Shown piece by piece: positions 46,221 to 57,533 of a stretch of 64,000 nt of DNA (position 1 is its first letter; every line of letters starts with the position of its first letter). The position numbers and the translations under genes are program-made. Below the pieces are notes generated by a model that saw only the letters and a program-made list of their open reading frames with translations, was not told where the DNA came from and made no database searches. This DNA comes from an uncultured Gemmatimonadota bacterium (GTDB taxonomy: Bacteria > Gemmatimonadota > Gemmatimonadetes > Gemmatimonadales > Gemmatimonadaceae): positions 1 to 64,000 of the forward strand of contig CAIVZZ010000029.1 of NCBI GenBank assembly GCA_903910555.1, written 5' to 3'.

Positions 46221-48146
46221 ATGGCTGACAAGGTGATTGGAATCGACCTGGGCACAACCAACTCCGTCGTTGCAGTGATGGAGGGTGGCGACCCTGTTGT
46301 GATCCCGAACGCCGAAGGCGGACGCACCACGCCGTCCGTCGTCGGCTTCAGCAAAGATGGCGAGCGTCTCGTCGGTCAGATCGCGAAACGCCAGGCCGTC
46401 ACCAACCCGCAGAATACCGTCTTCTCGATCAAGCGCTTCATGGGCCGCAAAATGCCCGAAGTGACCGAGGAGATTAAGCGCGTCCCGTACGCCGTGAAGA
46501 GCGGCACGAATGACGTCGCCGCCGTCGAAGTTCAGGGCAAGCGCTACACGCCGCCCGAAATCTCGGCGATGATTCTTCAGAAAATGAAGCAGACCGCAGA
46601 AGACTACCTCGGTCATCCGGTGACCAAGGCTGTCGTCACGGTGCCTGCGTATTTCAACGACTCGCAGCGTCAGGCCACGAAGGACGCCGGCAAGATCGCA
46701 GGCTTGGACGTGCTCCGCATTATCAACGAGCCGACCGCAGCGGCACTCGCATACGGCCTCGACAAGCAGGGCAAGAAAGACGAAAAAGTCGCCGTGTTCG
46801 ACTTGGGCGGCGGCACGTACGACATCTCCGTGCTCGAGCTCTACGAAGTTGACGGCGCCAAGCAGTTCGAAGTGAAGTCGACCAACGGCGACACGCACTT
46901 GGGCGGCGACGACTTCGACCAGCGCGTCATCGACTGGCTCGTTGCCGAGTTCAAGAAGGATCAGGCGATTGATCTCTCGAAAGATCCGATGGCGCTTCAG
47001 CGCTTGAAGGAAGCCGCCGAGAAAGCAAAGATCGAGCTCTCCGGCACGATGACGACGGACATCAATCTTCCGTTCATCACCGCCGATGCATCGGGTCCGA
47101 AGCATCTGAACTATCAGCTCACGCGCGCGAAGTTCGAGCAGCTCGTTGACGATCTGGTGCAGCGCACGCTTGAGCCAATGAAAAAGGCGCTGGCCGACGC
47201 GAAGATGTCGCCGTCGGAGATCGACGAGATTCTGCTCGTCGGTGGATCGACCCGTATCCCCAAGGTGCAGGAAGTGGTGAAGGCCTTCTTCGGCAAGGAG
47301 CCGAACAAGGGCGTGAACCCGGACGAAGTCGTGGCGGTTGGCGCGGCGATTCAGGGCGCAGTGCTCACGGGCGAGCAGAAGGACGTTCTGCTGCTGGATG
47401 TCAGCCCGCTGTCGCTCGGCATCGAGACGCTGGGCGGAGTCACCACGGTGCTCATCCCGCGCAACACGACAATCCCGACGAAGAAATCAGAAACGTTCTC
47501 CACCGCGGACGACAACCAGACAACGGTTGAGATCCACGTGCTGCAGGGCGAGCGCGATCTTGCCGTCTACAACAAGACCATCGGAAAATTCCAGCTCACC
47601 GGAATTCCGCCGGCACCGCGCGGCATGCCTCAGGTCGAAGTCACGTTCGACATCGACGCAAACGGCATCCTGCACGTCGCCGCGAAGGACAAGGCGACCG
47701 GCAAGGAACAGAAGATTCGCATTGAAGCATCGAGCGGCCTCTCCGACGGCGAGGTCGACCGCATGGTGAAGGACGCCGAGGCGAACGCGGCTGAGGACAA
47801 GCGCAAACGCGAGGAGATCGACACGCGTAATCGTCTTGACACACTCGCATATCAGGTTGAGAAGGAATCAAAGGAGTGGTCGGACAAGGTTCCGGCCGAG
47901 CTCAAGACTCGTCTCGATGCAGCCATCGAGCGCGCACGCAAGGCGCACAAGGGCGACGACATGAACGAGATCAAGGGCGCGCTGGATGAACTGAACGCGG
48001 CGTTCCAGGCGGCAGGTCAGGCGGTGTACGCGGCGCAGGCTGCGCAGCCGTCGGCAGATGCGCCTGCCGCTGAAGGTTCCACCGAAGCGAAGAAAGAAGA
48101 AGTCGCCGACGCGGATTACGAAATCGTAGACGAAGCGAAGAAGTAA
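46221..48146 (+). CDS. dnaK: Chaperone DnaK (Hsp70)
   Basis: A 641-residue Hsp70. The ATPase domain begins [20 protein letters not shown] and contains [15 protein letters not shown] and [16 protein letters not shown]. The substrate domain follows [18 protein letters not shown], and the C-terminus ends in an Ala-rich tail. grpE and dnaJ are not adjacent. Upstream, TTGACA at 46071 is a consensus -35 hexamer without a good -10. CCCCATCT at 46166 resembles a heat-shock sigma -10, but its -35 partner is too far. No CIRCE element is present. Confidence 0.98.
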
Positions 48147-48160
48147 GTCGTAGGTTTAAC

Positions 48161-48193
48161 GGCGCCGGCGCGGAAACTTTCCGCGCCGGCGCC
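48161..48193 (+). terminator. Terminator after dnaK
   Basis: GGCGCCGGCGCGGAAA and TTTCCGCGCCGGCGCC form a perfect, very GC-rich stem starting 14 bases past the dnaK stop. There is no long T-run after it. Confidence 0.65.
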
Positions 48194-48261
48194 GGGTCTA
48201 ATCAGTGGTAGTATTGTTCAGTGGTTGTCCAACCGATTCAACCGTAGCGAAGGAAAAAACC

Positions 48262-49815
48262 ATGACCATCCATCTATCCAAATCCAAAATCCTTGCAGTG
48301 GGCGCCGTTGCGTTCATCGCCGGCATTTTCTTCGCGTCGTCCATGAACTGGACGCGCATTCTGGGAGCGCAGGGCAAAGTCTCCGGGCGTTCGGCGCTCG
48401 TGTCGAACGCCGCGCTCGAAGATTCGCAGAACGCATTCGTTTCAGTTGCTGAGCGTGTAACACCCGCAGTGGTCTCGGTGACAGCAGAGCGCGCGGCACA
48501 TCCCGTGGCGCAGCGCAACAACCGCCTGAGCCAGATTCCGCCGGAGATGCGGCAGTTCTTCCAGGAGCCGCAGGATGCCGGCCCGCAGGAAGCGCAGGGG
48601 TCGGGCTTCATCGTGAGCAAAGACGGCTACATCCTCACGAACAATCATGTTGTCGATGGCGCGGACAAAGTCACGATCGAACTGCTCGATCATCGTCAGT
48701 TCAAGGCGAAGGTCGTCGGCCATGATCCTCAGACAGATGTCGCGGTTCTGAAAATCGACGCGACCGATCTGCCCACCGTAGTGCTCGGCGACGACAGCAA
48801 GACACGCGTCGGCGAGTGGGCGCTCGCAATCGGCAATCCGTTCGGTCTCGACTTCACCGTCACGGCCGGCATCATCAGCGCCAAGGGACGCACGAACGAA
48901 CTCCGCGGCCTGAACAGAAACGACTACAGAATTCAGGACTTTATCCAGACCGATGCCGCAATCAATCCGGGCAACTCGGGTGGACCGCTGATGAACATCC
49001 GCGGCGAAGTCGTCGGCATCAACACGGCGATCGCGAGCGAGACCGGTTCGTACACGGGCTACGGTTTCGCGATTCCGATCACGCTCGCGAAGACGGTGAT
49101 GGATGACATCATCTCTCACGGTCGCGTGCGCCGCGCAATCCTCGGCGCGCGAATCAATGATGTGAGCGCCGAAGACGCGGGCGTTGCAAAGCTCAAGGAC
49201 CTCAACGGCATCGTGGTGGTTTCGTTCACCGAAGGCAGTCCCGCGGAGAAGGCCGGCATGGAGCCGGGCGACGTCGTGGTGAAGATCGACGGCAAGCAGG
49301 TTGATCGTGTGAGCGAGTTGCAGCGTCTCATTCGCACCCATCAGCCGGGGGACGTCGTCAATCTCGAGGCCGTTCGCTTTGGCGATCACAAAGACTTCAA
49401 GGTCAAGCTGATCGAGGCGCCGAGCGACGAGGCTGTCGTGGCGTCTGCCGGCGGTGCAGCGCCAAAGGAAGCCGCGCCGACACCTGTGACCATGCCGGCC
49501 AAAAAGCTCGGTATCGTGGTTGAGGCACTGACGCCGGAGATCATCAAGGCAACCGGCGCGTCGGCAACTGTCCATGGCGTCGCGGTCAGTTCAGTTGAGC
49601 GCGATGGCCCGGCGATTCTCAAGCTGAGCCGCGGCGACATCATCACGGCGGTGACCTATCCGTTGCCGGCGACACCCGTGCGCAGTGTGGAGGATCTCCA
49701 GCGTGCGCTTTCGAAGGCGAAGGATGGCGACTTCATCCAGCTCTCCGTCGATCGCGTGTCAGACAGCGCGGGGCACCACTCGAACGTCGTTGTGAGCATC
49801 CGCGTCGGGAACTAA
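48262..49815 (+). CDS. degP: HtrA/DegP-family periplasmic serine protease
   Basis: A 517-residue envelope quality-control protease. An uncleaved-looking N-terminal membrane segment (about 10-26) may anchor it. The catalytic triad is His129 (TNNHVVDG), Asp159 (QTDVAVLK) and Ser239 in NPGNSGGPLM. PDZ domains follow at about 285-375 and 405-505. AAGGAA upstream supports the ATG at 48262. Its placement right after dnaK groups two protein-folding stress genes, though a terminator separates them. Confidence 0.92.
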   Translation: MTIHLSKSKILAVGAVAFIAGIFFASSMNWTRILGAQGKVSGRSALVSNAALEDSQNAFVSVAERVTPAVVSVTAERAAHPVAQRNNRLSQIPPEMRQFFQEPQDAGPQEAQGSGFIVSKDGYILTNNHVVDGADKVTIELLDHRQFKAKVVGHDPQTDVAVLKIDATDLPTVVLGDDSKTRVGEWALAIGNPFGLDFTVTAGIISAKGRTNELRGLNRNDYRIQDFIQTDAAINPGNSGGPLMNIRGEVVGINTAIASETGSYTGYGFAIPITLAKTVMDDIISHGRVRRAILGARINDVSAEDAGVAKLKDLNGIVVVSFTEGSPAEKAGMEPGDVVVKIDGKQVDRVSELQRLIRTHQPGDVVNLEAVRFGDHKDFKVKLIEAPSDEAVVASAGGAAPKEAAPTPVTMPAKKLGIVVEALTPEIIKATGASATVHGVAVSSVERDGPAILKLSRGDIITAVTYPLPATPVRSVEDLQRALSKAKDGDFIQLSVDRVSDSAGHHSNVVVSIRVGN

Positions 49816-49839
49816 CCGGCTCGATATCGCCAGGAAGTT

Positions 49840-49869
49840 CGAAGGGGCCGCCGAGTGGCGGCCCCTTCG
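49840..49869 (+). terminator. Terminator after degP
   Basis: CGAAGGGGCCGCC (49840-49852) pairs perfectly with GGCGGCCCCTTCG (49857-49869) around a GAGT loop, 24 bases past the degP stop. Confidence 0.8.
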
Positions 49870-49941
49870 TAATTTGTCGCTCATGCTAGCCGCTCTGGTC
49901 GTGCAGGACTAACATAGGTCGTCCTGCCACCGAGGTTCGTC

Positions 49942-51144
49942 ATGCGTCACGCTCGACTGCTCGCCGCACTCGTCTTGCTCAGCGCGCCGGTTTCGCTCCG
50001 CGGCCAGGGCGACGTCATTCTCATCCGCGGCGCCACGATTCATCCGGCCTCGGGCGCGCCAATCCCGAACGGCTCGATTCTCATTCGCGACGGAAAGATC
50101 GCGGCCGTCGGCACTTCGGTCGCTGCGCCGGCAGGCGCGCTCATCATCGAAGCCGCGGGAAAAGATGTGATCCCCGGAATGATCGACAACCACTCACACA
50201 TCGGCGCACGAGCCAGCGATCTCAACGACTCACCGATGGTGGTCGGACCGCAGCACCGTTTCATGGACGCGCTCGACCTGAACGACACCGATTTTAAAGA
50301 CGCGGTGACCGGCGGTGTGACGACGGTGGTCACAGGTCCCGGCAGCGGCGAGAACGTCAGCGGAATGGCGATCGTCATCAAAACATTCGGCGACAACCTC
50401 GCACATCGCCTCCTGCTTGAAAAAGGCGGGATGAAGTTTGCGATGGGCGCCAAGTCGCGTGACCGGTACCCGACCACGACGATGGGAGTTGCCGCGAACC
50501 TGCGGCAGTATCTGATCAAGACGCAGGAGTACATCGCCGCGCAGAAAAAATTCATCGACGACGGCCAAAAGGGGACGCCACCGGCACGCGATCTCGGCTA
50601 CGAGGCGATGACCGACGTGCTCACGCATAAGACCTATGTGCGCGCGCACGTCCATGCCGCGACGGATATCATGACGCTGCTCCGCCTCAAGGACGAGTTT
50701 GGTTTCGAACTCACGCTGCATCACGCGACCGAGGCGTACAAAGTGGCCGCCGAAGTTGCGAAGCGCGGCGTGTCCGCGGTCGTGCTTCCGCTCGGCCCGC
50801 GCATCGGAATCACCGACGACGCGATGGCCGGCCCATACGTTCTGTGGAAGGCGGGCGTGAAGATCGCGCTGCACACCGACGCTCCGGTGATCGACGAGAA
50901 ATGGCTCCGGCTCTGCGCCGCACTCGTGATGCGTTACGGCATCCCTGAAGAAGAGGCGCTGAAGATGGTGACGCTCAACGCCGCGCAAATCGCGCGTGTG
51001 AGCGACCGTGTCGGCAGTCTCGAAGTTGGCAAAGACGCCGACGTAGTCATCTTCAACGGCGCCTGGTACGAGCCGCGCTCGCGTGTGGACGTGGTGGTTG
51101 GCGACGGGAAGGTCATTTACGATCGCGCGAAGGAGGGCAACTAA
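49942..51144 (+). CDS. Secreted amidohydrolase
   Basis: A 400-residue amidohydrolase-superfamily enzyme with a signal peptide ending near SLRGQGD (residue 22). The metal site is visible: His84 and His86 in GMIDNHSHIG, His236/His238 in RAHVHAATDI, His260/His261 in LHHATEAY, and His311 and Asp313 in LHTDAPV. GSLEVGKDADVVIF is the usual C-terminal composite-domain motif. Related enzymes hydrolyse dipeptides, hydantoins or other cyclic amides; the substrate is not evident. It ends one base before the paralogous next gene. Confidence 0.88.
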   Translation: MRHARLLAALVLLSAPVSLRGQGDVILIRGATIHPASGAPIPNGSILIRDGKIAAVGTSVAAPAGALIIEAAGKDVIPGMIDNHSHIGARASDLNDSPMVVGPQHRFMDALDLNDTDFKDAVTGGVTTVVTGPGSGENVSGMAIVIKTFGDNLAHRLLLEKGGMKFAMGAKSRDRYPTTTMGVAANLRQYLIKTQEYIAAQKKFIDDGQKGTPPARDLGYEAMTDVLTHKTYVRAHVHAATDIMTLLRLKDEFGFELTLHHATEAYKVAAEVAKRGVSAVVLPLGPRIGITDDAMAGPYVLWKAGVKIALHTDAPVIDEKWLRLCAALVMRYGIPEEEALKMVTLNAAQIARVSDRVGSLEVGKDADVVIFNGAWYEPRSRVDVVVGDGKVIYDRAKEGN

Positions 51145-51145
51145 C

Positions 51146-52438
51146 ATGACCCGTCGCACCATCGCTCCTATTGCAGCCGTCGTCGCGCTGCTGCTCGCTG
51201 CGCTGTCGCTCTCGCCGCGCTCGCTCGTTGCGCAGGAAAAGGTGATCGCCATTCGCGGCGGCACTGTGCTTCCGATCAGCGGTCCGCCGATCGCAAACGG
51301 CATCGTCATCATCCGCGGCACGAAGATCGCCGCTGTCGGTGCGGGGATCGCCATTCCGGCGGGCGCCGAGATCGTCGACGCCACGGGGAAGTACGTGATG
51401 CCGGGCGTGATCGACGCAGCGTCGCAAATCGGAATCGATGCCAGCGATCAGAACGAGGCGAGCGACCCAATCACTCCCGCGCTGCGCGCGTTCGAGAGCT
51501 ACAATCCGTTTGGCACGCTGGGTTTGGGAAAACCCGGTCCGCTGCGGAACACCGAACTGCTCGCCGGCGGCGTGACCACTATGTATGTGAGTCCGGCCGA
51601 CGCGACGATTGTCGGCGGCCAGGGATTCGTCGTGAAGACCGCGGGGAACACGCTCGACGCGCTCGTCGTGCGCGACCCGGCGGCAATGGATATGACGCTC
51701 GGCACGCCGCCCAAAACCGCGGCGCGCGCGCGGAACCGCGATCCATACACGCGCATGGCCGAGGTCGCGCTGATCCGGCAGGCGTTGATCAAGGCGCAGG
51801 AGTATCAGCGCAACAAACAGGCGAGGCCAGAGCTTCCGCGCGACCTCGGCAACGAGGCGTTCGGTGCGATGCTGCGGCGCGAGATTCCCGCGCGCATCCA
51901 GGCGAACAACGCAACGGATATCCGGTCAGCGCTAAGGCTCGGCGAAGAATTCGGCATCGACGTGATCATCGACGGCGGCGCGATGGCGTACGAGTTCAGA
52001 GATGAACTCGCGGCGAAACACATTCCGGTTATCCTCGGACAGGTCTCGCATCAGTACATCAGCAACGAGGAGGTCCCGGACAAAACGGACTATCCTCCCG
52101 CAGACGAGCGACTTGCTGCACGCCTTACCGCGGCGGGTGTCACGACGGCGATCGCGACGTTCTCGCGCGCGTTTGGCTCGCTCGCGCCGTCGGGGAGCGG
52201 CAAATGGCTGCTGATAGACGCGGCGATCTCGGCGGGCTACGGCATGTCGGACGCGGACGTGTTGAAAGCGGTGACGCTGGTGCCGGCCACGATCCTCGGT
52301 GTCGCGAAGCGCGTTGGGTCGCTCGAGGCCGGCAAGGACGCCGACGTCATCATCCTCGACGGGCCGCCGCTGAGTGTGAAGACATGGGTGCAGCGGACGT
52401 ACGTCAATGGTGAACTGGTGCACCGGCGTGCGCCTTGA
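51146..52438 (+). CDS. Amidohydrolase-like protein lacking the metal ligands (probable pseudoenzyme)
   Basis: A 430-residue secreted paralog of the preceding enzyme, with a signal peptide ending near SLVAQEK (residue 31). It keeps the fold markers VMPGVID, ARIQANNATDI and GSLEAGKDADVIIL. The first paralog's HxH becomes A92-S-Q94, RAHVH becomes R-I-Q252-A-N254, LHHAT becomes I-D276-G-G-A, and LHTDAP becomes TFSRAF. All candidate metal ligands are therefore gone, although the frame is intact and long. A non-catalytic partner of the upstream enzyme is the simplest idea. GGAGG lies about 13 bases upstream of the ATG. Confidence 0.85.
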   Translation: MTRRTIAPIAAVVALLLAALSLSPRSLVAQEKVIAIRGGTVLPISGPPIANGIVIIRGTKIAAVGAGIAIPAGAEIVDATGKYVMPGVIDAASQIGIDASDQNEASDPITPALRAFESYNPFGTLGLGKPGPLRNTELLAGGVTTMYVSPADATIVGGQGFVVKTAGNTLDALVVRDPAAMDMTLGTPPKTAARARNRDPYTRMAEVALIRQALIKAQEYQRNKQARPELPRDLGNEAFGAMLRREIPARIQANNATDIRSALRLGEEFGIDVIIDGGAMAYEFRDELAAKHIPVILGQVSHQYISNEEVPDKTDYPPADERLAARLTAAGVTTAIATFSRAFGSLAPSGSGKWLLIDAAISAGYGMSDADVLKAVTLVPATILGVAKRVGSLEAGKDADVIILDGPPLSVKTWVQRTYVNGELVHRRAP

Positions 52439-52474
52439 GAAGCGTGCATTGGTTTTCGATGTGATCAAACCGCT

Positions 52475-52957
52475 ATGACGAGGCACGCAATCGTCGCAAC
52501 GCTCGACGTGGTTTTGCTGATTGCGTTTCTCGCGCTGGAGACGCCCGGCGCGTCCACCGGATTCAAGTTCCACGAGTGGGTCGGGATCGCATTCGTGGGA
52601 TTCTTCGTTGTGCACGTGGCACTCTCGTGGAGTTGGATCTCCGGTACGATCGGGCGGCTCCGCCAGGATGCAGTTCCGCGCATCAGGGTGAACTTCGTCC
52701 TGAACGCCGCATTGTTTGTCATGGCGCTCGTCGCGATCGTTTCAGGGTTTCTCGTTTCCGATTATTTGCTGCCGTCGGCGCACTTGACGACGAGCGATGA
52801 CCCGCGCTGGCGGAACGTGCACAACATGACGGCCTCGTTCCTGCTCGCCGTCGTGGGGCTCCACATTGCGCTCAACTGGAACTGGATCAAGGGCGCATTT
52901 CGGCGATACATGACAAGGCAGTCGAGTCGCGACATTGGCGGGGAGAGCGACTCGTGA
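52475..52957 (+). CDS. DUF4405-type membrane protein
   Basis: A 160-residue protein with four membrane helices. HEWVGIAFVGFFVVHVALSW and HNMTASFLLAVVGLHIALNW contain paired histidines spaced like those of b-type heme-binding four-helix membrane proteins. This matches DUF4405. A redox role is possible but unproven. Its stop overlaps the following small gene by 4 bases. Confidence 0.75.
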   Translation: MTRHAIVATLDVVLLIAFLALETPGASTGFKFHEWVGIAFVGFFVVHVALSWSWISGTIGRLRQDAVPRIRVNFVLNAALFVMALVAIVSGFLVSDYLLPSAHLTTSDDPRWRNVHNMTASFLLAVVGLHIALNWNWIKGAFRRYMTRQSSRDIGGESDS

Positions 52958-53274
52958 GCGCGGCCGTGATCGATCGCGCCGAACGAAGTCGCCGCCGATT
53001 TCGATTGCTCGAGCTCACGGTGGTCGTTCTCGCCCTCTTTCCGTTCAGCATCTTTGCGCTTCGCAGCAGCGATGGCTCAGGGCCTCGCCTCGTAAGCACG
53101 GGCCGTCCTGGCCGTGCGCCGGTTCGACGCGAACTGACGAGAACTGAGCTCCGGGACCGCCGGGCACGGACGCAGCCTACGCTGGCGGACGCGTTGCTCG
53201 ATGTCTCCATCCAACTCGTGTGGATCGGGCTGGCGGCGTGGCTTGGGCGGCGCTGGTTCGCATTGCGCCTCTGA
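52954..53274 (+). CDS. Small two-helix membrane protein, unknown
   Basis: A 106-residue protein begins with GTG inside the end of the DUF4405 gene. Hydrophobic segments lie near residues 19-36 (LELTVVVLALFPFSIFAL) and 83-100 (LLDVSIQLVWIGLAAWLG), separated by an Arg-rich stretch of about 45 residues. No family was recognised. The 4-base overlap suggests it works with the DUF4405 protein. Confidence 0.6.
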   Translation: MSAAVIDRAERSRRRFRLLELTVVVLALFPFSIFALRSSDGSGPRLVSTGRPGRAPVRRELTRTELRDRRARTQPTLADALLDVSIQLVWIGLAAWLGRRWFALRL

Positions 53275-53349
53275 TCGGCCAGCCGGGTCATCGCGCGCAG
53301 GGCCATTCGGCTTGCGTAAGCCGTTCGCAAATCAGAACTTTCGGGCTAC

Positions 53350-53431
53350 GCGAGAGTGGCGGAACTGGCAGACGCGCAGGACTTAGGATCCTGTGGGGCA
53401 ACCCGTCCGGGTTCGACTCCCGGCTTTCGCA
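53350..53431 (+). tRNA. tRNA-Leu (anticodon TAG)
   Basis: The acceptor stem GCGAGAG pairs with CTTTCGC, followed by discriminator A at 53431. The anticodon stem-loop CAGGA-CTTAGGA-TCCTG carries TAG, reading CTA and related Leu codons. A long variable arm (TGGGGCAACCCGTCC region) and the T-arm CCGGGTTCGACTCCCGG fit class II tRNA-Leu. CCA is not encoded. It ends 18 bases before tig. Confidence 0.97.
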
Positions 53432-53449
53432 CTTAGTTATCTTTAGGAC

Positions 53450-54694
53450 ATGGATATCGAAGTAGTTTCCCGTAAATCCGAAGGCGTCGAGCGGCGCCTC
53501 GGTATCAGCATCTCCGCCTCCCGTGTAGCCGACGCCAAAGAGCGCGCTACAAAGCGTGTCGCCGGTCAGGTTCGCCTGCCTGGCTTCCGCCCCGGTAAGG
53601 CGCCCGCCGCCGTCGTCCGAAAGAAATTCGCCGACGAAATCCAGCAGGAAGCCCTCGAGTCGCTCATGCGCGATGCGTACCAGTCCGTGCTCGAGAGCGA
53701 GAAGCTCGAGCCCGTGACTCAGCCGCACGCGCACGATGTGAAGTTCGAAGAAGGCCAGCCGCTCACGTTTGAGCTTCACTGCGAAGTGAAGCCGGTCATC
53801 GAGCTCGCGCGCCTTTCCGGCTTCACGGTCAAGCGCGCATCAAACGTGGTCTCGGATCAAATGATCACGGACCAGATCGCCGAGCTGCGCGATCAGCGCG
53901 CGACCTGGACTCCGGTCGATGAAAAACCGCGGGAGGCCGACATGGTCACGGTGAGTCTCGCCGTCGCCGATGAAACCGGCGTCGTTCCCGAAGGCAAGGA
54001 ATACCGCATCGTCCTCGGCTCGGGTCAGGCGATTGCCGCGATCGAAGAAGTCATCATGGAGCTCGCACCGGGCGCCAGCATCGAGCGCGCCGTGAAATGG
54101 CCCGATGATTTCCCCGACGCTGAACAGGCCGGCAAGAGCAAGCAGGTGCGCGTCGCGCTGAGCGAAGTGAAGCGGAAGTCGCTTCCGCCGCTCGACGACA
54201 CGCTCGCCCGCGAGCTTGGCGATTTCGATTCGCTCGACGCGCTGAACAAGGCCGTGCGCGAAGATCTTGAGGGACAGGCCGTGCGCGAAGCCGATGCGGC
54301 CGTGCGCACGTCGCTCGTCGATGAAATCATTGCAGCGAATCAGTTCGATGTGCCGCCCACCTGGGTGCGCGACTTGGTGAGCCATTACGCCGAGGCGTAT
54401 CGCATTCCGCCGGAAGAGCAGGAAAAGTTCGCGACGGAATTCCGCACGATGGCGGAGCGTCAGGTGCGTCGCGATCTCATTCTCGAGACGATCGCGCAGC
54501 GCGAGAAGCTCGTTGCCGAAGAGAAGGACGTGGACGCGAAGGTCGCCGAGATGGCGGCCAAGCGCGGAGCAGACGCCGGACAGGTGTATTCGGCACTGCA
54601 GAAGGGCGGCCGGCTCCGTGAGATTGAACGCGGCATCACCGAGGACCGCGTGTTCGAGTTCCTTTTGGCCCAGAATACCGTCGAACAGGCGTAG
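53450..54694 (+). CDS. tig: Trigger factor
   Basis: A 414-residue ribosome-associated chaperone and peptidyl-prolyl isomerase. The ribosome-docking motif is GFRPGKAPAAVVRKKF near residue 44. The PPIase-like domain covers roughly 150-240 and is rather short and divergent. The C-terminal helical arms follow. The ATG is only 18 bases from the upstream tRNA-Leu, with AGGA almost touching the start codon. It is followed by clpP and clpX, the usual order. Confidence 0.95.
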   Translation: MDIEVVSRKSEGVERRLGISISASRVADAKERATKRVAGQVRLPGFRPGKAPAAVVRKKFADEIQQEALESLMRDAYQSVLESEKLEPVTQPHAHDVKFEEGQPLTFELHCEVKPVIELARLSGFTVKRASNVVSDQMITDQIAELRDQRATWTPVDEKPREADMVTVSLAVADETGVVPEGKEYRIVLGSGQAIAAIEEVIMELAPGASIERAVKWPDDFPDAEQAGKSKQVRVALSEVKRKSLPPLDDTLARELGDFDSLDALNKAVREDLEGQAVREADAAVRTSLVDEIIAANQFDVPPTWVRDLVSHYAEAYRIPPEEQEKFATEFRTMAERQVRRDLILETIAQREKLVAEEKDVDAKVAEMAAKRGADAGQVYSALQKGGRLREIERGITEDRVFEFLLAQNTVEQA

Positions 54695-54727
54695 CAGAAG
54701 ACTCCACGTTCTCAGAGAAAAAACACT

Positions 54728-55354
54728 ATGACGATCATTCCGAATCCGTACGTCATCGAGCGCTCAAGCCGCGGCGAGCGCAGCTATGACGTCTATTCGC
54801 GGCTCCTGATGGACCGCATCATTTTCCTCGGCACGCAGATCAACGACGACGTCGCGAACATGATCATCGCGCAAATGTTGTTTTTGGATGCGGACAACCC
54901 GGGGCGCGACATCTATCTGTATCTCAACTCGCCGGGCGGCAACGTCTCGAGCGGCATGGCGATTTACGATACGATGCAGTTCCTGCGCTCGCCGGTGAAC
55001 ACGATTTGCATGGGAATGGCGGCGTCGATGGGTTCGTTCCTGCTGGCCGCGGGCCACGCTGGCAGGCGTTCAGCGCTGCCGCACGCGCGCATCATGATCC
55101 ACCAGCCTTCGGGCGGCGCGCAGGGCACGGCGGCGGACATCGAGATCCAGGCGAAAGAGATTCTTTATCTCCGTGCGCAGATGAACGGGCTGTACGCAAA
55201 GCACACCGGCCGGCCGCTTGAGCAGATCGAGCGCGACATGGAGCGCGACTTCTTCATGTCCGCCGAAGAGGCTGTGAAATACGGCATTATCGACAGCGTG
55301 ATCACCCAGCCGGTGAACGAGCCGTCGAAGTCGGCGCTGACCGCTACCAAGTAG
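54728..55354 (+). CDS. clpP: ATP-dependent Clp protease proteolytic subunit
   Basis: A 208-residue ClpP forming the barrel-shaped peptidase used by ClpX. The triad is Ser100 ([14 protein letters not shown]), His125 in [11 protein letters not shown], and Asp174 near the family [11 protein letters not shown] motif. [19 protein letters not shown] is also diagnostic. It lies 33 bases after tig. Confidence 0.97.
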
Positions 55355-55367
55355 GGCAGTAACTGCG

Positions 55368-55394
55368 GCACCGGGCCGGAGATCGACCCGGTGC
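55368..55394 (+). terminator. Hairpin between clpP and clpX
   Basis: GCACCGGG and CCCGGTGC (55368-55375 and 55387-55394) form an 8-bp stem 13 bases past the clpP stop, without a T-run. Downstream, TGTACCC is repeated at 55449 and 55459, ten bases apart. The 166-bp gap could hold a separate clpX promoter. Confidence 0.35.
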
Positions 55395-55520
55395 TTGCAG
55401 GGTACTATCAATTGTTACAGATATGTGTGTGGTGCGTCGAAACTGAGATGTACCCGTTTGTACCCAGTCCGATCGAGACGCACGAGTAATCCCCAGTTTT
55501 TCGAGGTCTGTTAGCGATCC

Positions 55521-56786
55521 ATGACGTCCATGTCCCACGATCGGCACCTGCGCTGTTCTTTTTGCGGAAAGTCCAAGGATTCGGTGAGGAAGTTCATCTC
55601 CGGCCCTTCGGTCTACATCTGCAACGAGTGCATCGCGCTGTGCAACGAGATCCTGGCCGAGGACGAGGAGCGCGAGGTCGCTGAAGCGGTCACCTCGGTC
55701 CCTGCCCCACAAGAAATCAAGGATGTCCTCGATCAGTACGTGATCGGCCAGGAGAACGCGAAGAAGGCGCTCGCCGTGGCCGTCTACAACCACTACAAGC
55801 GCATCAACTCGAGTGCCTCGCGTCGTGAAAACGATGTGGAGCTCGATAAGTCGAATATCCTCCTGCTAGGACCAACAGGAGTCGGCAAAACGCTGCTCGC
55901 GCAGACGCTCGCGCGCATGCTCGATGTGCCGTTCACGATCGCTGATGCGACGACGCTCACCGAAGCCGGGTATGTTGGCGAGGATGTCGAGAACATTCTC
56001 GTCCGCTTGCTGCAGGCCGGTGATTTCAACGTGGCCGAGTGCGAGCGCGGCATCGTTTATATCGATGAAATCGACAAGATCGCGCGCAAGTCGGAGAACC
56101 CGAGCATCACGCGCGACGTCAGCGGCGAAGGCGTACAGCAGGCACTGCTGAAGATTCTGGAAGGCACGGTTGCGAGCGTTCCCCCGCAGGGTGGCCGCAA
56201 GCATCCGCAGCAGGAATACATCCAGATCAACACGAAAGACATTCTGTTCATTTGCGGCGGTGCGTTTGACGGGCTCGAGAAGATCATCGAGGCACGTTTG
56301 GGCCGCCGCCAGATCGGATTCAATCCATCGGACGAAGCGAAGAAGGGCGGGCTCAAGGCGGCAACAAATGTGTTCGGCGACGTGGAGCCGGAGGATTTGC
56401 TGCGCTTCGGGCTCATTCCGGAGCTCGTAGGCCGGTTGCCGGTGACGGTGCCGCTCGAGTCGCTCGACGAAGAAGCGCTGGTGCGGATCCTGAAGGAGCC
56501 GAAGAATGCGCTCGTCAAGCAGTATGCGAAGCTGTTCGAGCTTGAGGATGTTCAGATCACGTTCGAAGAGTCGGCGCTGAAGGCGATATCGAAGAAGGCG
56601 ATCGAGCGCGGGACGGGAGCGCGCGGGCTGCGGGCGATCCTTGAGGAGATCCTGCTGGATACGATGTTCGATTTGCCGGGACGGGACGATGTTATTGAGG
56701 TGAGGGTTACGGAGTCGAGCGTTACTAATAAGACGCCGCCGTTGCTGGAGCTTTCTGGGGGGAAGAGGCAGAAGAAAGAGGCTTAA
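55521..56786 (+). CDS. clpX: ATP-dependent unfoldase ClpX
   Basis: A 421-residue ClpX that recognises, unfolds and feeds substrates to ClpP. The N-terminal zinc finger uses Cys12, Cys15, Cys34 and Cys37 (CSFCGKS and [10 protein letters not shown]). Walker A is GPTGVGKT (117-124), Walker [11 protein letters not shown], and the pore loop [10 protein letters not shown]. The C-terminal sensor-2 region has [20 protein letters not shown]. Confidence 0.98.
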
Positions 56787-56888
56787 CTACATCGACGTCA
56801 GACGTTAGCTGTCAGCTGCTAGCGGTCAGACAACGGCTACATGACAGATTTGCGGCGGGCCCATGGGGTCCGCCGTTATCTTTTAAGC

Positions 56889-57533
56889 GTGAATTCCCCA
56901 GCCGACTCCGCAGGCAAGAAAGATCCGCTAGTCATTCGTGACCTCGAATTCCTCGGGGGGATGGCTACGGCTGATGGATGGCGGCCGGAAGCCTCGTTGC
57001 CGGAGATTGCGTTTGCGGGGCGGTCGAACGTTGGGAAGTCTTCCCTGCTCAACCGCCTCGTGCGCCGCAAAGCATTTGCGCGCGTCAGCAATACGCCGGG
57101 GCGGACGCGGGAGCTGAACTTTTTTCTCGTCAACAAAGTATTTGTGCTCGTGGATTTGCCGGGCTACGGATATGCGAAGATTTCCAAGACGCGGCGGGCC
57201 GAGTGGCGGCCGTTGATTGAGGGATATTTGAAAGGCTCGCCGGCGCTGCGTGGAATTGTGCAGTTGCTCGATGTGCGGCATGCGCCGACGGACGAAGACC
57301 GGCAGCTCTTTGATATGCTCGCGGAGATTGGAGTGCCGGCGATCATTGCGGTCACGAAAATCGACAAGCTCACCAAACCCAAAGTGCAGGAACGCATTCA
57401 CGCGCTTGCGGTCGAGCTCGAGCTCGACGAGGATCAGATGATCCCGTTCAGTGCCGTGACGGGCGAGGGGCGCGATGAACTCGCCGAGGCGCTGGTATCA
57501 TTGCTGGAGCAGCCAGACTGGAGGACGGCGTGA
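56889..57533 (+). CDS. engB: Ribosome-biogenesis GTPase EngB (YsxC/YihA)
   Basis: A 214-residue GTPase needed for large-subunit assembly. G1 is FAGRSNVGKSSLLNRL, the switch region SNTPGRTRELNFF, G3 DLPGYGYAK, and G4 AVTKIDKL. The GTG at 56889 gives a family-typical length. An in-frame ATG at 56841 would add 16 residues (TDLRRAHGVRRYLLS); neither has a ribosome site. A TATCTT stands 8 bases before the GTG. The stop overlaps the next gene by 4 bases. Confidence 0.93.
   Translation: MNSPADSAGKKDPLVIRDLEFLGGMATADGWRPEASLPEIAFAGRSNVGKSSLLNRLVRRKAFARVSNTPGRTRELNFFLVNKVFVLVDLPGYGYAKISKTRRAEWRPLIEGYLKGSPALRGIVQLLDVRHAPTDEDRQLFDMLAEIGVPAIIAVTKIDKLTKPKVQERIHALAVELELDEDQMIPFSAVTGEGRDELAEALVSLLEQPDWRTA

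Follow-up and report, generated by a model that had tools for sequence, protein, structure and literature searches.

Non-catalytic proteins of the amidohydrolase fold that are kept by selection are known from the CRMP or dihydropyrimidinase-related proteins, which are eukaryotic and cytoplasmic, lie near the hydantoinases rather than the 3OOQ-type family and are not known to be encoded beside a live paralogue. In the M16 metallopeptidases, the two halves are known as separate subunits or as a fused chain. As outlined in PMC12731061, both M16 halves are essential and the active-site residues are typically present in only one of them. The inactive pseudo-dihydroorotase (pDHO) is described in outline in PMC7053772 as required for the activity of Pseudomonas ATCase, and it is thus an inactive chain of the amidohydrolase superfamily that is needed by its partner enzyme. 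In our study, a window of 64,000 nucleotides from an uncultured Gemmatimonadota bacterium (contig CAIVZZ010000029.1, positions 1 to 64,000; genome of 3.2 Mb in 32 contigs) was analysed, and a tandem gene pair within it was found to encode a probable amidohydrolase and a paralogue in which all the canonical active-site residues are replaced. We consider, with a probability of about 0.7, that the two proteins are the two subunit kinds of one exported hetero-oligomeric amidohydrolase, of a kind that would be mostly exported. The pair differs from pDHO and ATCase, where the live partner is not homologous to the dead chain, whereas the window proteins are paralogues and probably exported. The M16 peptidases have an unrelated fold and chemistry, and the analogy is one of principle only. 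The window pair belongs to neither system, and both are precedents for the principle. No description of live-dead amidohydrolase pairing was found in the open-access literature, which was searched with few terms and without subscription papers.

The two genes lie on the forward strand, both frames are open, and the TAA stop of the first is followed by 1 base and the ATG of the second. A preliminary description of this DNA, made from the letters alone, had reported an intact second frame, a one-base intergenic gap and an alignment of the second protein along the length of the first. All of these were borne out, as the second frame is open for 430 amino acids and the two proteins share 40% identity end to end. 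Both proteins scored above the cut-off for Pfam Amidohydro_1 and Amidohydro_3. The top PDB relative of both was 3ooq of Thermotoga maritima (phmmer E 1.6e-60 for the first and 2.6e-63 for the second protein), and the runner-up matches were far weaker (2e-11 and 3e-10, respectively). This full-length similarity, well above that to other amidohydrolases, places both proteins in the 3OOQ-type subfamily, which we take to be COG1228-like. The AlphaFold2 models had a predicted local distance difference test (pLDDT) score of 88.7 for the first and 86.4 for the second protein. In comparison with 3ooq, the first model gave a Z of 49.9 over 369 aligned residues with a root mean square deviation of 1.9, and the second a Z of 53.4 over 373 residues with a deviation of 1.7. 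Both are predicted to have the amidohydrolase superfamily fold, a (beta/alpha)8 barrel with an N-/C-terminal beta sandwich, and the second model may lean to the enzyme fold because both folding alignments mix intact and ligand-poor rows. Assignment of a function from curated families was tried and rejected, since no NCBIfam model came near its cut-off; the best scores among the named enzymes (imidazolonepropionase, Xaa-Pro dipeptidase and others) were 66 bits, where the cut-off is 500, and 52 bits, where it is 391.

The canonical amidohydrolase set, here of the mononuclear type, consists of an HxH motif on strand 1, His residues on strands 5 and 6 and an Asp on strand 8. In the first protein, these are His84 and His86, His236, His261 and Asp313 (strands taken from the model), and each of them is invariant in 27 of 27 intact relatives. 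In the second protein, Ala92, Gln94, Gln252, Gly277 and Phe339 stand in their places, and His238 and His260 are further exchanged for Asn254 and Asp276. Judged on these residues, the first protein counts as a catalytic member of the superfamily and the second does not. 3OOQ, an uncharacterised T. maritima amidohydrolase, is the closest solved structure to both (37-38% identity in the structural alignments, Z of about 50). It retains HxH, His, His and Asp in the alignment like the first protein, but its solved chain starts at the barrel part, without a leader. A search of the open-access literature found no paper naming 3OOQ. The preliminary description had listed eight ligands, and only the five canonical ones can be kept: position 238 is Tyr in 14 of the 27 intact relatives, 260 holds Glu, Gln, His or another residue, and 311 likewise varies between Asn, His, Met and others. 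Six of the replacements that it gave were confirmed, whereas Phe and Arg for His311 and Asp313 were not, as MAFFT pairs these with Ala337 and Phe339, a shift of two residues.

Among 22 window-type orthologues of the second protein, the invariant residues include Asp90 (equivalent to Asp82 of the first), Asp276 (aligned with His260) and Phe339, but no His or Cys. The site in the window clade has therefore been exchanged for a different, partly conserved set and has not simply drifted. The family as a whole is bimodal: in a redundant set of 218 members, collected with the second protein as query, 91 carry all five canonical residues, 126 carry none to two and one carries four. Both genes are under purifying selection. 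The ratio of nonsynonymous to synonymous substitution rates (dN/dS), computed by hand from Nei-Gojobori estimates against eight orthologues, was about 0.05-0.15 in the first gene, compared with 0.10-0.21 in the second, with dS near saturation; in three closer pairs it was 0.25, 0.11 and 0 for the first versus 0.07, 0.13 and 0.05 for the second. The mean pairwise identity across the 22 orthologous pairs is 63% in both gene families. Together with the lack of an invariant His or Cys, these values support the earlier proposal that the second protein is selected as a probable non-catalytic protein. Relatives that keep the ligands in the second protein, which had been named beforehand as the evidence that would speak against this, were sought. 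The set is lost in all 22 window-type orthologues, and only distant basal relatives keep a part of it (L237 with three of the five residues, L045 and L234 with two each).

Pairing was found to be widely conserved. With the second protein as query, 172 of 200 Gemmatimonadota genomes gave a match at E 1e-20, and an orthologue of at least 49% identity is present in 21 other genomes, with the intact gene directly upstream on the same strand in 21/21. Thus the co-occurrence with the same losses, which the preliminary description had proposed to look for in other genomes, was seen at 22/22 window-type loci with the intact gene upstream, which exceeds what chance would produce. The broader search was repeated with an alignment of 15 intact proteins, since the first had started from a ligand-less protein; its phyla are named after the identified loci that were taken as centres. 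At E 1e-25, a match was present in 141 of 249 Bacillota, 94 of 148 Bacteroidota and 48 of 99 Acidobacteriota genomes, and at E 1e-40 in 46 of 99 Planctomycetota, 15 of 200 Pseudomonadota and 4 of 100 Actinomycetota genomes. A partner was counted when a ligand-poor relative was fused or lay at most 1.5 kb away on the same strand. Among the best-scoring matches of each sample, such a partner was present at 29/29 loci in Bacteroidota, 29/29 in Acidobacteriota, 20/20 in Planctomycetota and 16/16 in Pseudomonadota (15 genomes), in total 94/94, and at 0/30 loci in Bacillota and 0/4 in Actinomycetota (0/34). Three of the five residues remain in one counted partner (L237), and at most two in the other downstream partners of nearly full length. 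In both samples (94/94 and 22/22), live and dead subunit genes thus occur together in a conserved manner, as expected for an enzyme-pseudoenzyme hetero-oligomer.

The arrangement of the live (intact) and dead (ligand-poor) genes varies. Among 52 loci collected with the ligand-less query (L040-L091), 33 are dead-live-dead, 11 live-dead and 6 dead-live, while one has the intact gene alone and one is without an intact frame. The intact gene of L046 is seen alone, where the stored sequence ends, and L084 (Nitritalea halalkaliphila LW7) is a trio whose middle, intact gene is broken into two frames, by a frameshift or a sequencing error. In 7 of the 30 Bacillota loci, a second intact copy takes the place of the ligand-poor one; these live-live tandems (L174, L177, L178, L180, L185, L186 and L189) have five of five residues in both copies and are mostly without an export signal. 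Two further Bacillota loci lie outside this sample of 30: Lutispora L169 has a ligand-less neighbour (LVNGC) beside the intact gene, and Lysinibacillus L167 has an intact gene beside a broken one.

Natural fusions of the two kinds of domain are also present. In 20/20 Bacteroidota loci selected for long frames (996-1164 amino acids), the upstream ligand-poor domain is fused to the intact domain, and a separate downstream ligand-poor gene follows in 18 of these. The same upstream fusion is seen in three Gemmatimonadota loci (L146, L154 and L156), and live and dead domains are fused in the Planctomycetota loci L281, L283 and L286. Five of the 20 Planctomycetota loci (L287, L288, L291, L295 and L296) encode dead, live and dead domains in one frame of 1320-1396 amino acids. 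Moreover, eight Planctomycetota loci picked for clustered matches (L322-L329) have about 7-11 family members in a row, counted by eye with split domains joined, and 1-3 of these members keep four or five of the five residues. Some members in these arrays keep HxH, His and Asp with the strand-6 His changed to Gly or Ala (HHHGD, HHHAD), possibly forming an altered active site. Adjacency at 94/94 loci of four diderm phyla, taken with the natural fusions, argues strongly, if indirectly, for a paired enzyme-pseudoenzyme complex.

In an IQ-TREE tree of 59 rows, from which the long-branch Planctomycetota rows and Lutispora were left out, one branch parts 27 intact from 32 ligand-poor proteins (support 92/92; 94% of 200 bootstrap trees). 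As a single branch separates live and dead proteins across phyla, the ligand loss is ancient. A FastTree tree of 130 rows, from which the remote amidohydrolase L092 was left out, needs two changes, one of them being the partial-ligand row L237, scored there as intact. A single origin of the dead branch is favoured by the 59-row tree but not secured after removal of 27 active-site columns, and the upstream and downstream ligand-poor partners form separate groups. The duplication is accordingly ancient, and the live and dead genes have been kept together since then, or were passed on jointly by transfer. In the 130-row tree, L237 (RHRHD), L045 (GHRHS) and L234 (HSRHG) of Acidobacteriota and Wallbacteria sit close to the basal node of the main dead group and are possible intermediates of a stepwise ligand loss.

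Export was judged by a simple hydropathy test, which is not a trained predictor, and by this test both window proteins have a hydrophobic N-terminal segment, a probable Sec signal peptide. A hydrophobic 11-mer N-terminal to the intact domain was found in 29/29 Bacteroidota, 19/29 Acidobacteriota, 30/40 Gemmatimonadota and 1/37 Bacillota proteins, and most of the Bacillota intact proteins begin at the domain itself. Pairing appears to go with export, allowing for the crudeness of the test and for Lutispora as an exception.

Conserved genome context was tried as a guide to the substrate and rejected. Among 87 open reading frames (ORFs) adjoining the relatives' pairs, peptidases of families M19 (6), M20 (5) and M28 (4) and Amidohydro_3 proteins (7) were found. 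The 87 comprise 85 of 115 listed adjacent ORFs, without near-copies, short and doubtful frames, and two hand-picked ones, L120:8098-9216 on the other strand and L124:9079-10569. None of these four families was among the 25 of 62 families listed for 73 distant control ORFs, where single matches are possible. The peptidase neighbours in some relatives weakly suggest peptide or amide substrates outside the cytoplasm.

The hetero-oligomer is favoured by the shared sequence and fold, the selection on both genes, the co-occurrence, the fusions, the ancient split and the link of pairing with export, and it can be pictured as follows. Both proteins would be exported by Sec, and the ligand-less barrel would pack on the catalytic barrel at the place which a second identical subunit takes in a homo-oligomer. 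Assembly, stability and/or the formation or gating of the active site on its substrate-binding side may depend on the dead barrel. Outside the cytoplasm, the catalytic subunit would cleave a small amide or peptide, as the peptidase neighbours weakly hint. More broadly, we see an even chance that the pair represents an unrecognised class of mixed assemblies among the amidohydrolases of diderms. In this class at least one dead and one live paralogous barrel, derived from an ancient duplication, would be exported together, from the duo through trios and single-chain fusions to the Planctomycetota arrays of about 7-11 members (1-3 near-complete sites), which could form hetero-rings, while the cytoplasmic relatives of Bacillota and Actinomycetota would work without dead partners.

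Several points weigh against the hetero-oligomer. Adjacency and fusion indicate a functional linkage, which is not necessarily a stable complex, and the 94 loci that carry the count are best-scoring matches and not a full census. Part of the data also comes from metagenome-assembled genomes. Lutispora L169 is paired despite the otherwise unpaired Bacillota, so that the link between pairing and export is imperfect, and the hydropathy test missed 10/29 Acidobacteriota and 10/40 Gemmatimonadota intact proteins. Without the 27 active-site columns, the live/dead split in the tree requires two changes, though one is possible. Finally, the peptidase-neighbour sample is redundant through near-copies and its control probably contains spurious frames in GC-rich DNA, so little weight should be put on it.

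Other explanations of the tandem were considered. The second protein may be a separate exported binding protein, whose remodelled pocket binds what the first enzyme uses as substrate or releases as product, acting as a sensor, carrier or buffer without a stable complex. The invariance of Asp90, Asp276 and Phe339 in and around the old site in the 22 orthologues looks as if a pocket had been kept, and tandem expression would suit this explanation too. We hold it to be unlikely, as it leaves unexplained the in-frame fusion in 20/20 of the Bacteroidota fusion loci and the dead-live-dead polypeptides of Planctomycetota. Those fusions also exceed the needs of a further explanation, in which the two proteins act sequentially or independently and their tandem order is kept only by a shared nutrient response. 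Mixed hydrolase operons of the kind it supposes do exist, as seen from the M19, M20 and M28 genes (6, 5 and 4 of the 87 adjacent ORFs). The strict live-then-dead or dead-live-dead order on one strand, mostly within a few hundred bases, is likewise more than co-regulation would call for, and we consider this explanation improbable.

It can also be asked whether the second protein has an enzyme activity of its own that does not depend on the canonical residues, either metal-independent or with a metal held elsewhere. Its barrel is intact in the model, the acidic residues Asp90, Asp152, Asp258 and Asp276 are conserved, and some Planctomycetota members keep four of the five residues (HHHGD, HHHAD). 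The replacements, however, vary by lineage, the strand-8 Asp is Phe in 22/22 orthologues and there is no invariant His or Cys, which makes such an enzyme rather improbable. Decay of a recent duplicate towards a pseudogene is scarcely credible and was rejected. The loss of all five residues and a protein change somewhat faster than in the first gene would fit decay, but the dN/dS of about 0.05-0.21, the long open frames in 22/22 orthologues and the grouping of ligand-poor proteins across phyla, which points to an ancient duplication, do not.

The family described here offers a natural series, from the solo enzyme through the live-live tandem, the live-dead duo, the dead-live-dead trio and the fusions to the large arrays. 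Together with the relatives that retain some ligands and branch early in the dead group, this series makes the transition from homo- to hetero-oligomer and the contribution of the dead subunit testable. Pseudoenzyme subunits are usually described enzyme by enzyme, and here the whole series is present in one family. Further, the catalytic residues are absent from many matches to amidohydrolase profiles in Bacteroidota, Acidobacteriota, Planctomycetota, Pseudomonadota and Gemmatimonadota, and annotation should not treat these as enzymes.

Table 1. Features of the gene pair and its upstream flank, in window positions.
Feature	Position	Strand	Basis or remark
Hairpin, 13-bp, GC-rich, between htrA and the pair; possible terminator, weak T tail	49840..49869	+	z -5.6
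Catalytic subunit, probably exported amidohydrolase, HxH/His/His/Asp site intact, 400 amino acids	49942..51144	+	sequence, profile search, model
Probable Sec signal peptide of catalytic subunit, about residues 1-22	49942..50007	+	hydrophobic 11-mer, Kyte-Doolittle (KD) 2.42
Codons His84-Ser-His86, strand-1 HxH	50191..50199	+	invariant in 27/27 intact relatives
Codon His236, strand 5	50647..50649	+	alignment, 27 intact relatives
Codon His261, strand 6	50722..50724	+	alignment, 27 intact relatives
Codon Asp313, strand 8	50878..50880	+	alignment, 27 intact relatives
Non-catalytic paralogue, 430 amino acids, ATG 1 base past the preceding stop, five canonical residues all replaced	51146..52438	+	
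Probable Sec signal peptide of paralogue, about residues 1-30	51146..51235	+	hydrophobic 11-mer, KD 3.03; model helix 7-20
Ala92-Ser-Gln94 replacing HxH	51419..51427	+	alignment
Gln252 replacing His236	51899..51901	+	alignment
Gly277 replacing His261	51974..51976	+	alignment
Phe339 replacing catalytic Asp313; invariant in 22/22 orthologues	52160..52162	+	alignment

No further full-length homologue of the pair was found in the same genome, whose closest named relatives are Gemmatimonadetes metagenome-assembled genomes (84% protein identity, L040). In the window, the pair lies amid genes with probable roles in proteostasis (46221-57533), namely DnaK, an HtrA-like protease, trigger factor, ClpP and ClpX; these names were read from the sequences, and HtrA was confirmed separately. 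Of 11 window neighbours (DnaK, HtrA, TauE/SafE, trigger factor, ClpP, ClpX and others), none was found in 40 loci of relatives (L120-L159), an empty result that was verified by self-search, and the proteostasis setting of the window is therefore uninformative on the substrate. The pair travels alone, independent of its window neighbours, and this was counted in favour of the hetero-oligomer. The upstream hairpin may set the pair apart from the htrA-like gene as a unit of its own; four terminator-like sites were observed in the region against 2.9 expected by chance, so that this sign is weak in itself. Directly 3' of the pair (52475-52957), a small membrane protein with a DUF4405 / cytochrome b561-like domain is encoded.

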